Source: an uncultured Eubacteriales bacterium (lineage in GTDB: Bacteria > Bacillota_A > Clostridia > Saccharofermentanales > Saccharofermentanaceae). From it: 16,844 nt of DNA. The notes under the pieces were generated by a model. It was given only the letters and a program-made list of their open reading frames with translations. It was not told the origin of the DNA and ran no database searches. The stretch covers positions 1 to 16,844 of the forward strand of contig OMQY01000199.1 in assembly GCA_900313405.1 (NCBI GenBank), in the 5' to 3' direction. This document shows positions 11,296-16,844 of the stretch, one piece after another; positions within the stretch are counted from its first letter, which is position 1, and every line of letters begins with the position of its first letter. The translations under genes and the position numbers were made by a program.

Positions 11296-11328
11296 ATAAC
11301 AAAAAACACGGCGTATATTCCGCCGTGT
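11296..11328 (-). terminator. Rho-independent terminator of the nitrogenase-like operon
   Basis: On the minus strand, ACACGGCG (11321-11328) pairs perfectly with CGCCGTGT (11306-11313) across a 7-base loop and runs into TTTTTGTTATATTT. It lies about 27 bases after the nifH-like stop and marks the end of the operon. Confidence 0.92.
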
Positions 11329-11354
11329 CTTTCTTATATCCGAATGATCCTCTA

Positions 11355-12209
11355 TCAGATCGCGTAGTTATCCTTCAGCGAGTCCATCAGACCGTACTCG
11401 AGAAGGATCTCCTCGAGTCTTTCCTGCGTCATAGGCGTAGGGATCGTAAACATGGTATTCTTATCGATCGCCCTGGCAAGTGCTCTGTACTCATCTGCCT
11501 GGGATGACTTGGGTTCATACTCGATTACGGTCTTTCTGTTGATCTCTGCCCTCTGAACCACGTTGTTACGCGGAACAAAGTATATCAGCTGTGTATTCAA
11601 TTCTTTGGCGAATGCAGTCAGAAGATCCTTCTCCCTGTCAACATTACGTGAGTTGCAGATAAGACCGCCCAGGCGGACACCGCTCTTACGGGCGTACTTG
11701 GCGATACCCTTGGATATGTTGTTTGCCGCATAAAGAGCCATCATCTCGCCTGATGCGACGATGTAGATCTCCTTGGCTTTTCCTTCACGCATCGGCATAG
11801 CGAAGCCTCCGCACACAACGTCTCCCAATACATCATAGAAAACATAATCAAGATCATCGGTGTAAGCACCTTCCTGCTCCAATAGACCGATGGATGTGAT
11901 GATGCCTCGGCCTGCGCAGCCTACACCGGGTTCCGGTCCGCCGGACTCCACGCATTTGATGCCGCCGAAGCCCTCCTTCAGGATGTCATCGAGTGAGATA
12001 TCCTCACCCTCCTCACGGATAGTATCGAGAACCGTCCTCTGTGCCAGTGTTCCCAAGAGAAGACGGGTGGAATCCGCCTTGGGGTCACAGCCGACGACCA
12101 TTATGTGCTTACCCATTTCCGCCAGACCTGATGTCAGGTTCTGCGTCGTTGTGGACTTGCCGATACCTCCTTTTCCATAGATTGCGATCTGTCTGGTTTC
12201 CTTAGCCAT
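11355..12209 (-). CDS. nifH: NifH-like Fe protein (nitrogenase reductase family)
   Basis: 284 residues from the ATG at 12209, preceded by GGAAAGGAA; the open frame extends further upstream only by overlapping the NifB-like gene. This is the ATP-dependent reductase that passes electrons from a 4Fe-4S cluster to a NifDK-type partner. The sequence is very close to canonical NifH: P-loop [15 protein letters not shown] (11-25), [11 protein letters not shown] (40-50), [16 protein letters not shown] (87-102), [15 protein letters not shown] (125-139), [17 protein letters not shown] and [15 protein letters not shown]. Cys98 and Cys133 are the cluster ligands shared between subunits. Arg101 is at the position ADP-ribosylated in some diazotrophs. 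It resembles NifH more than BchL/ChlL or CfbC. It is the last gene, 26 bases after the NifB-like gene and ahead of a terminator, whereas nifH leads classical nif operons. The partner here is the DK pair upstream, so the symbol denotes family rather than proven nitrogen fixation. Confidence 0.95.
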
Positions 12210-12235
12210 AGTCTTTTTCCTTTCCGATCTTATAT

Positions 12236-14825: not shown

Positions 14826-16312
14826 TACTGACCTTTCTCCTTTTCTGTAGCCTTCATAAAGTAGTCACTGTCCTGAGTGAGCCACCATTTGGTGTAGGGA
14901 TTGACGGCGTGCTTCTGAAGATTCTTGACGAACTCATCGTTCTCGATAACATCCAAAATGCGATTACCGTAATCTACTATTCCCTCATATCCCATTCCGT
15001 AGTGTTCGTCACCTATCAGGAGGCTGGGAATCCCGTACTTGGCGCCCCAGAGTGTCATTCCTCCGTGACGGGCCAGAAGCACATCCGGATGGAGCTTACC
15101 CAGCGCATTTACCAGCTCGAACTCCTGCTTGGAGCATACGCGATAGTGAGGTACATCTCCGAAGTCTTCGACTCTCTGTCTTAACTGATCGTTATTCTCA
15201 TCACCGATGTCGTAGACGGGATCGTGATGGAAGATGGAAGCGCCCTTAGCTCTTATCCCCAATTCTCCCAGAACACTCAAGAGTGCGTGTCCGTGAGCTG
15301 CTCCACCGGTAACGTAGGCCGTCTTGCCGCTCAGCTTCTCTCTTAATTCTTCGATCTGAGGAAGATATTCTTTCTTCTTCTCTTCGATGATCTTCTCGGC
15401 CACATCTTCCTGATGAAGGATCTTACCCAGAGCTCTGAACCAACGATCCGTCTGAGCGATACCGTAAGGCGGAGCCGTGGGAACCTCGGGCACTCCGTAT
15501 TCCTGTTCGAGCGCCGCACCCAGATAGCTTCCGAGAGTGGAGCACGCCTGAACGGTTGCAACTGCTTCACCGGAATGCCTCAGGGTGTTTACCGTGGAAT
15601 ACGGCGTAATGTAATTAGGCCTGTAGCCGAAGGGCTTGAACCACTCGGAGAAACGGTCGCTTCCCCAGAAGTTGATAACATTTATGAAGTCGCTCTTCTT
15701 GTCGGTCTTCTCGATAAGCTTACGGGCGATACCGTGATAGCCCGCATCAAAACCGGTAGTCCAGATCTTGGATCTGAAGCCCTCACAGGTTATCGCCACT
15801 ACCGGGATACCGAATTCGGCTTCAGCCTGATCACAGGCACTCTCGATGTCATCACCGACAATGGCGGATGCGCATGTGGACAGGACAAAGATCGCATTGG
15901 GCTTTTCTCTCTCGTATACTTCCCTGATCGTCTTCTCGAGCTTGGCGTTACCGCCGTAGACTGTGTCTTTCTCCTGAAGATTGGTCGAATAGATCTTCCT
16001 CTGCTTGGGATCGGATACATTACGCAGATCGGCGTTGACCATATAGGTGAAGTTGAACTCCTGCAGGCAGGTCGAACAACCGATGGGACCGTGTTCTATG
16101 ACAGCCGCGTCCTGAATGAGTATCGTCATACATGCTGCTTTACTTATCGAGCAGCCGGCGCACTGCATAAATGAACGCTCTCTGTCCTTAAGCCTGCCTT
16201 CGCAGTGCGACTTCTCAACGAGATCCTTGGCATTCCCGTCGTATGCGGAAATGGAATTGATCCTTACCTCACGTATCTCTACTGCAGGCAGATCAAGATT
16301 GATTTTTGTCAT
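14825..16312 (-). CDS. NifD-like catalytic subunit of a nitrogenase-like reductase (candidate MarD)
   Basis: 495 residues, near NifD length. P-cluster-type cysteines: CAGC (Cys51/54), EHGPIGC (Cys79) and STCASAIVGDDIES (Cys147). Active-site cofactor ligands also appear conserved: Cys257 in VQACSTLGSYL aligns with NifD Cys275, and His437 in IGDEHYGMGYEG aligns with His442. That separates it from CfbD, BchN and ChlN, which lack both. After the shared CEGFR (176-180), NifD residues Gln191 and His195 are replaced (Trp184 and Phe188 by simple alignment), and the homocitrate-contacting Lys426 position is Gly418. Extra cysteines at 61 and 82 are unusual. The ATG at 16312 lies 28 bases after the metY-like stop, and the gene overlaps the K gene by TAATG. 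With NifB but no nifEN or nifV, a carbide-containing cluster without homocitrate is likely. Methylthio-alkane reductase activity is inferred from family and context. Confidence 0.85.
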   Translation of the reverse strand: MTKINLDLPAVEIREVRINSISAYDGNAKDLVEKSHCEGRLKDRERSFMQCAGCSISKAACMTILIQDAAVIEHGPIGCSTCLQEFNFTYMVNADLRNVSDPKQRKIYSTNLQEKDTVYGGNAKLEKTIREVYEREKPNAIFVLSTCASAIVGDDIESACDQAEAEFGIPVVAITCEGFRSKIWTTGFDAGYHGIARKLIEKTDKKSDFINVINFWGSDRFSEWFKPFGYRPNYITPYSTVNTLRHSGEAVATVQACSTLGSYLGAALEQEYGVPEVPTAPPYGIAQTDRWFRALGKILHQEDVAEKIIEEKKKEYLPQIEELREKLSGKTAYVTGGAAHGHALLSVLGELGIRAKGASIFHHDPVYDIGDENNDQLRQRVEDFGDVPHYRVCSKQEFELVNALGKLHPDVLLARHGGMTLWGAKYGIPSLLIGDEHYGMGYEGIVDYGNRILDVIENDEFVKNLQKHAVNPYTKWWLTQDSDYFMKATEKEKGQ

Positions 16313-16340
16313 GTTAAATACTACCTTCTTTTCGCTAATA

Positions 16341-16844
16341 TCAGGAACCGAAAACCTGTTCCAGGGATGTCCTCAGATCCTCAATGAGATCTTTTGAATC
16401 CTCGAGACCGACTGATACTCTTATGAGATCCTCACTAAGATCGGCCTTTACTCTCTCGTCGCCGTCAAGCTCGCTGTGAGTTGTTTGAGGAGAATTAACG
16501 ATGAGGGAACGGACATCTCCTATATTTACGTGGAAATGGAAAAGTGTCAGGGAATCAAGGAAACGGTTCTTCTGCTCGGTCGTGCCCTTGATCGCGAACG
16601 AGAAGATATTGCCTGCGCCTTTCTTAAGATACTTTTCTGCCAACTGCTTATTCGGATTACCCTCGAGTGTGGGGTAGTTCACCCAGGCGATATGCTCGTT
16701 GGACTTAAGGAAGTCCACAAGATCTGTAAGGTTCTCCTGCTGCTTCCTTATTCTCTCTGAGAGCGTATCAAGACCCAGGATAACGAGATAAGCTTCGACA
16801 GCGCTGAGCTTAGCACCGAAAAAGTTAAGCCCCACAAGTCTCAG
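16341..16844 (-). CDS. metY: O-acetylhomoserine sulfhydrylase, C-terminal part (gene runs off right edge)
   Basis: Only the last 167 residues are in the window; the frame is open to the last base, so the GTG at 16835 is an internal Val codon rather than a start. The segment matches the C-terminal domain of the PLP-dependent Cys/Met metabolism family: FFGAKLSAVEAYLVILGLDTL, VNYPTLEGNP, KKGAGNIFSFAIKG, NIGDVRSLIVNSPQTTHSEL and DLIRVSVGLED. The NIGDVRSL form is more like O-acetylhomoserine sulfhydrylase than cystathionine lyase or synthase. The PLP lysine lies beyond the edge. The enzyme joins sulfide or methanethiol to O-acetylhomoserine, giving homocysteine or methionine. It sits 28 bases upstream of the NifD-like gene in the same orientation, so methanethiol released by a Mar-type reductase could go straight to methionine. 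A role with sulfide alone remains possible. Confidence 0.88.
   Translation of the reverse strand: MRLVGLNFFGAKLSAVEAYLVILGLDTLSERIRKQQENLTDLVDFLKSNEHIAWVNYPTLEGNPNKQLAEKYLKKGAGNIFSFAIKGTTEQKNRFLDSLTLFHFHVNIGDVRSLIVNSPQTTHSELDGDERVKADLSEDLIRVSVGLEDSKDLIEDLRTSLEQVFGS

Follow-up and report, generated by a model that had tools for sequence, protein, structure and literature searches.

The question raised by a stretch of DNA from an uncultured Eubacteriales bacterium, a Clostridia-type anaerobe (GCA_900313405.1, contig OMQY01000199.1, 16,844 nucleotides, hereafter the window) is what a nitrogenase-like enzyme does when its operon begins with a sulfhydrylase gene. The window carries a run of six genes on the minus strand, from 16844 to 11355, in the order metY-D-K-X-B-H, where metY resembles genes for O-acetylhomoserine sulfhydrylase and the others resemble nifD, nifK, nifX, nifB and nifH, respectively. 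An earlier note had proposed a methylthio-alkane reductase (Mar), a system whose first description is reportedly that of North et al. 2020. We put at about two in three the probability that the operon encodes an ATP-driven C-S reductase with an [Fe8S9C]-type cluster, which would serve sulfur assimilation by a Mar-like mechanism, form a separate clade and probably act on a different substrate; as far as the sequences indicate, its role is probably sulfur scavenging and not N2 fixation.

In the proposed mechanism, the NifB-like B would make the [Fe8S9C] cluster, which X may carry, and the cluster would reside in D without Mo or homocitrate, presumably held by Cys257 and by His416 next to Arg415. 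H2, an Fe protein of NifH type, would use MgATP to drive electrons into a D2K2 core that contains P-clusters; the predicted reaction of this core is the cleavage of a C-S bond in some small organosulfur compound. MetY would join the freed methanethiol or sulfide to O-acetylhomoserine, yielding methionine or homocysteine, and an importer, judging from its linkage in relatives, may bring in the substrate. Few enzymes are known to use the nitrogenase carbide cluster for anything besides N2, and another such clade, with a substrate of its own, would extend the chemistry of this cluster and bear on the origin of nitrogenase.

Cluster ligands and clade of the catalytic subunits

Both catalytic subunits, D (14825..16312, minus strand, 495 aa) and K (13479..14825, minus strand, 448 aa), match PF00148. 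The nearest solved relative of D is the Rhodospirillum rubrum methylthio-alkane reductase (9fmg_A, E 1.3e-128), followed by a nitrogenase at 5e-35, and K matches 9d9u_C with E 3.4e-105. By alignment, C54, C79, C147, C257, R415 and H416 of D correspond to C66, C91, C158, C270, R428 and H429 of MarD, and all six P-cluster cysteines, three in D and three in K, are kept. The ligand roles are those described for MarDK, in which the His of the Arg428-His429 loop binds Fe8 of the [Fe8S9C] cluster (PMC12552129); the corresponding Arg-His codons lie at 15065..15070 on the minus strand. Of the 83 comparison rows, 55 have the Arg-His pair and just six of these belong to the MarD clade; the pair therefore marks a group wider than Mar.

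The residues that line the MarD active site are not kept to the same extent, with His194 and Gln74 being Ile and Met in the window D. His194 is found in all MarD-clade rows (5/5 local and 11/11 reference) and in none of the 13 window-clade loci, the 15 sequences of the NflD1 type or the 21 other rows with the Arg-His pair, and thus marks MarD. Gln74 is kept in 15/15 NflD1-type sequences, whereas 11 of the 13 window-clade loci have Met. With an aliphatic residue in place of His194, the fit or the proton path may differ from that in Mar.

To place D and K, we built a D tree (77 rows) and a combined D and K tree (84 rows, quick search), both with Nif references and without Vnf, Anf, Cfb or Bch rows. 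The D tree had 12 such references (NifD and NifE of Rhizobium etli and five Bacillota sequences of each, named by their best BLAST match to R. etli) and the combined tree one R. etli NifDK row and one NifEN row; duplicates (L201; L099 2875-4374), D proteins shorter than 440 aa and D proteins with no K of 400 aa or more within 400 bp were left out of the latter. In both trees the window D or D and K form their own clade, sister to that of Heliophilum fasciatum NflD1, and MarD stands on a separate branch. Support in the D tree is 100/100 for the window clade, for the window and NflD1 clades together and for the MarD clade, and the combined tree, with Shimodaira-Hasegawa-like approximate likelihood ratio (SH-aLRT) values only, gives 100 to each of the same three and 89 to the NflD1 clade itself. 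A tree forced to unite the window and MarD rows to the exclusion of NflD1 is 82 log units worse, and the union is rejected by the approximately unbiased (AU) test (21 of the 84 rows, LG+G4; p 3.9e-6).

The window D is 40-45% identical to eight aligned members of the MarD clade and 52-55% identical to eight of the NflD1 type. Among the best 120 homologs of R. rubrum MarD, at 74-100% identity, are proteins of Heliobacteria, Pelosinus and Clostridium; among the best 120 of the window D, at 69-100% identity, are proteins of Acetivibrio, Butyrivibrio, Eubacterium and Syntrophobotulus. Defined by at least 60% identity to the window D over most of its length, window-type D was found in 3/398 genomes sampled from the phylum of Herbinix and 9/397 from its family (Herbinix being in both), as well as in one of 188 genomes in the order of a near-relative metagenome-assembled genome (MAG, G001); in 25 genomes of that order the D is of the NflD1 type, at 53-56% identity. 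The 13 window-clade loci do not include G541, whose match is 61% identical but spans residues 263-486 only. A 2023 paper (PMC10418091) points to Group IV-A genes resembling Mar that lie within or close to methyltransferase clusters, together with genes of sulfur metabolism; in the open-licence literature that we searched, we did not find this clade set apart from MarDK by His194 or tied to an importer.

A strict Mar, which would convert 2-(methylthio)ethanol, ethyl methyl sulfide or dimethyl sulfide to ethylene, ethane or methane and pass methanethiol to MetY, overlaps with our reading in mechanism and differs from it in substrate. MetY is able to use methanethiol, and the operon has the ligands, the fold and the B, H, D and K components of MarBHDK, including a NifB-like maturase, in one cluster; its B and H also share 59% and 80% identity with their counterparts in a MarD-clade operon (L086, genome G032). 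We nevertheless regard a strict Mar as unlikely, given the separate clade, the rejected union with MarD and the changes at His194 and Gln74. The operon also differs from marBHDK in its gene order, its NifH-type H and its extra X. Moreover, a single same-strand run in another genome (L079 3143-18078, G177) holds window-type, MarD-type and third DK pairs with metY, CysK, a pyridoxal phosphate (PLP) lyase and a Ssu-type importer, and the window-type and MarD-type pairs, lying side by side, are unlikely to be redundant. The proposal of Mar holds for the nearest solved relative and the cluster ligands but not for the clade or the two residues lining the active site. The fallback offered with it, that the substrate is a so far undescribed sulfur compound, is a better match than methylthioethanol or dimethyl sulfide.

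Two further groups of D-like proteins appeared in the comparison. One clade (L190, L192, L196, L198, L200) keeps Cys270, has Thr at 375 and Cys at 195, lacks the Arg-His loop and shares genomes with pairs of the Arg-His type. A long-branched pair of D proteins (L091 9392-10897, L087 13673-15172) has Cys-Pro in place of Arg-His and Asp at 375, and L091 is near MtaA-like methyltransferase genes.

Sulfur assimilation weighed against nitrogen fixation

To assess which genes accompany the D-K pairs, we counted same-strand genes within 8 kb that exceeded set identity limits. The link to metY, on which the earlier note had built, recurs in 8 of the 13 window-clade loci and in none of 26 D-K pairs without the Arg-His pair; it is found in 3/15 loci of the NflD1 clade, in 1/5 of the MarD clade (the L079 gene, shared with the window-type pair) and in 1/21 of the other Arg-His rows. 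Window-clade loci also have an importer binding protein (9/13), H (9/13), B (7/13) and CysK (2/13), while the binding protein occurs in 5/15 loci of the NflD1 clade and CysK in 12/21 other Arg-His rows and 14/26 pair-less ones. Absences in these counts are soft, because at least 5 kb could be seen on both sides in only part of the loci (8/13 window clade, 15/15 NflD1, 2/5 MarD, 18/21 other Arg-His, 13/26 pair-less).

The importer linked in 9/13 window-clade loci is of the Ssu/NMT1 type, with a binding protein of the NMT1 type, and suggests a polar substrate, whereas substrates like dimethyl sulfide should diffuse, a further point against a strict Mar. A fuller proposal, which we advance tentatively and with somewhat more doubt than trust, is that the clade represents a separate nitrogenase-cofactor enzyme, to which a polar organosulfur compound would come through this importer to be cleaved at an [Fe8S9C] cluster without His194, with MetY taking up the product.

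Import of this kind also recalls isethionate reductase (IsrBHDK), another nitrogenase-like system of sulfur assimilation with a proposed C-S cleavage, which works with SsuCAB in Rhodobacter capsulatus (PMC11423573). That the operon encodes a sulfonate reductase of the Isr kind, fed by the Ssu-type importer and releasing sulfite, is nevertheless highly improbable. IsrD is described with one of the three P-cluster cysteines, no Cys275 and no ligands for the large cluster, and IsrB as NifB-like in its radical SAM motif only (PMC11423573); in contrast, the window D has all of these residues, the window B is NifB-like and the linked gene is metY. The sulfite/nitrite reductase family PF01077 was not found in 10/13 genomes and was found in 11/14 controls, a pattern that argues against sulfite as the product, with no baseline from comparable operon-less genomes. 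On residues and scores together, we reject membership in Isr itself.

Several points favor nitrogen fixation. The window clade is sister to NflD1, the Heliophilum NflDK1 is predicted to be the dinitrogenase of its host and is grouped with Endomicrobium proavitum NfaDK (PMC9147875), and the E. proavitum enzyme is called a functional nitrogenase (PMC11257099). The NifD of E. proavitum is also said to be without the His ligand (given there as His422), like that of some gut Clostridiales, which are kept as possible fixers (PMC4995403), and the window H is of the NifH type. By this account the operon would be a Group IV-A nitrogenase of the Nfa type, fixing N2 with an Fe-only cluster, and we consider it improbable. 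Although the fold, the P-cluster cysteines, an equivalent of Cys275 and the NifH-type H are shared with the Mo-nitrogenase NifHDK and with NifEN, the window D has Met, Trp and Phe in the columns of NifD His442, Gln191 and His195. MarDK, whose metal ligands are the same, produces 15NH4 at no more than background level (PMC12552129), and a nifD mutant is not rescued by five nifD-like genes of Paenibacillus sabinae, whose clade was not placed here (PMC4246453). In G001 (2.1 Mb), the D and K of the operon are the only PF00148 matches, and nifE exceeds its cut-off in only 3/10 further genomes with window-type D. The absence of nifEN elsewhere in the genome, raised as a check in the earlier note, thus applies to the near relative and not to those three. 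The NifV model TIGR02660 is passed in 0/3 genomes and in 0/14 controls, so that it has no positive control.

The linkage to metY and the importer also speaks against N2 fixation, and it extends to NflD1 itself. NflDK1 and NfaDK (Group IV-A; Heliophilum fasciatum, Paenibacillus and, by report, E. proavitum) share with the window clade the ligand set and Ile or Val at position 194; they differ in keeping Gln74, in a Heliophilum H that is 52% identical to that of the window and in being called nitrogenase in print. The Heliophilum NflD1 (L081 6372-9173) starts 9 bp behind metY and has the Mar-type cluster ligands, a combination that weakens the nitrogenase prediction for this lineage as far as sequence can tell. 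E. proavitum NfaD is not named among the best 120 listed homologs of Heliophilum NflD1, which are at least 73% identical to it.

That the pair serves as a NifEN-like scaffold for cluster assembly, or in some other reductive task unconnected to sulfur, we consider very unlikely. In favor of a scaffold, the window D scores 162 bits against nifE (TIGR01283, cut-off 505), close to its 164 with the general alpha-chain model and more than its 122 against nifD (cut-off 653). However, G001 has no further PF00148 enzyme that could take up a cluster (there are four additional matches in G002 and two in G003, genomes whose members of the clade are more distant), the cluster ligands are of the Mar type and the linked genes are those of sulfur metabolism. 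These scores, far under both cut-offs, and the D tree bear out the expectation that D is neither NifD nor NifE, and membership in NifEN is rejected on residues and scores.

Several observations weigh against sulfur assimilation by a Mar-like enzyme. A Group IV enzyme that is grouped in print with NflD1, that of E. proavitum, is reported to fix N2 (PMC9147875, PMC4995403, PMC11257099), and two residues lining the MarD active site, His194 and Gln74, are changed. The completeness of G001 is not stated, which limits its lack of further PF00148 genes. Five of the 13 window-clade loci, on contigs or stretches of 3.3, 8.7, 13.7, 14 and 18 kb, have no metY within 8 kb, and MetY has housekeeping roles as well. 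The full-length MetY of L001 (contig CAMNGC010000031.1 of G001, an uncultured Clostridia MAG) scores 443 bits against TIGR01326, below the cut-off of 495; this is still its best NCBIfam model (the next gives 398), and the protein is probably a divergent MetY. In neither the window nor L001 does the importer adjoin the operon, that of G001 lying on another contig beside a second metY. PF01077 is present in 3/13 genomes, and no known riboregulator was found at the operon.

If the fuller proposal above is true, gut and rumen Clostridia that are counted as possible diazotrophs for having a true-type NifH and a NifD without His442 would be sulfur scavengers. The same sulfur-dedicated lineage would then include the Heliophilum NflDK1, for which a dinitrogenase role appears likely in print. 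The passages of PMC4995403 on NifD without the His ligand see no reason to exclude N2 fixation and name Lachnospira and Butyrivibrio. A Butyrivibrio D (P0101) falls within the window clade, and we infer that the Butyrivibrio genes of that paper are the same. In gut Clostridia, NifD proteins without this His may serve either nitrogen fixation or sulfur assimilation, and the choice between the two thereby becomes testable.

Operon structure, Fe protein and regulation

The earlier note had described a tight minus-strand operon with a terminator, and both the gene calls and a second copy agree. Pfam matches along the run are Cys_Met_Meta_PP, Oxidored_nitro (twice), Nitro_FeMo-Co, Radical_SAM and Fer4_NifH, and the successive gaps, from metY to H, are 28, -1, 11, 11 and 26 bp. 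L001 has a copy of the block at 90.2% DNA identity across 5,517 bp; there metY is complete (ATG 604, stop 1920) and is the first gene of the operon, and the 603 bases upstream of it contain no plus-strand open reading frame (ORF) of at least 80 aa. Such a copy is not expected by chance, and the metY-D-K-X-B-H operon is real. No nifE-, nifN- or nifV-like ORF was seen in the window list (13 ORFs scanned against Pfam), as had been reported.

The window itself holds the C-terminal 167 aa of MetY (16341..16844, minus strand; PF01053; TIGR01326 positions 259-418), the 5' end of the gene lying outside. X (13123..13467, minus strand, 114 aa) appears to be a cluster carrier of the type of NifX and the NifB C terminus (PF02579), with 48 bits against TIGR02663, below the cut-off of 112. 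B (12236..13111, minus strand, 291 aa) is a NifB-like radical SAM protein (PF04055) that matches TIGR01290 nifB with E 1.7e-82 and 277 bits, under the cut-off of 343; since the match covers model positions 10-293 of 441, the NifX-like end is absent. By eye, B carries what we take to be the motifs CxxxCxxC, HPC and CRxCRADA. The hairpin 3' of H (11301..11333, minus strand), with a 13-pair stem and a T-rich tail, resembles an intrinsic terminator; because 15 such sites were found in comparison with 11.0 expected in shuffles, the case for it rests on position, not count.

H (11355..12209, minus strand, 284 aa; PF00142) scores 460 bits against the TIGR01287 nifH model (cut-off 394) and is 67% identical to R. 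etli NifH, with E 8.6e-143 to NifH (1cp2) versus 5.9e-87 to MarH (9fmg_D). It is 80-92% identical to the H of other clostridial loci, including L086 with its MarD-type D (80%), and 48-52% identical to those of Heliophilum, Chlorohelix and others. All five H proteins tried pass the TIGR01287 cut-off. H thus cannot tell these enzymes apart, and a survey based on nifH would take the operon for that of a diazotroph, so that operons of this kind can enter counts of nitrogen fixers by mistake. A remedy proposed in PMC8597730 is to trust nifD and nifK; here D- and K-like genes adjoin H, so this remedy needs strict models.

An S-adenosylmethionine (SAM) riboswitch or T-box, sought upstream of the operon following the earlier suggestion, was not found at the gathering score in the window, L001, L002, L078, L079 or L166-L173, or in the NflD1-type loci L081, L177, L182 and L184; in the first 700 bases of L001, with E up to 5, only implausible microRNA models matched. 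Elsewhere, a T-box in L003 precedes a gene that by eye reads as trpB, and a SAM riboswitch (L080 1681-1784) lies before a gene for a PLP lyase of the Cys/Met type near an NflD1-type operon.

Behind the importer of G001 (L208 10767-14064) are genes for a DUF4418 membrane protein, an FtsX-like permease, an ATP-binding cassette (ABC) ATPase and a LysR regulator; in L002, H is likewise followed by relatives of the membrane protein, the permease and the ATPase. As a specific partner this module was rejected, with one or two of 13 window-clade loci and other clades having it as well. In the phototroph Candidatus Chlorohelix allophototropha, a plasmid (L016) has an NflD1-like B-X-H-D-K set together with a divergent ABC importer, which BLAST did not show to be of the SsuA type. 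It also has a single O-acetylhomoserine sulfhydrylase gene, which is divergent and thus uncounted among the neighbors above. Just downstream of the window operon and behind its terminator, a serpin gene (9896-11236, same strand; PF00079, 269 bits) encodes an N terminus that by eye resembles that of a lipoprotein. Further along, positions 1008-3575 hold an ORF of 855 aa with no Pfam match at E 1e-5, and the next ORF runs off the start of the window.

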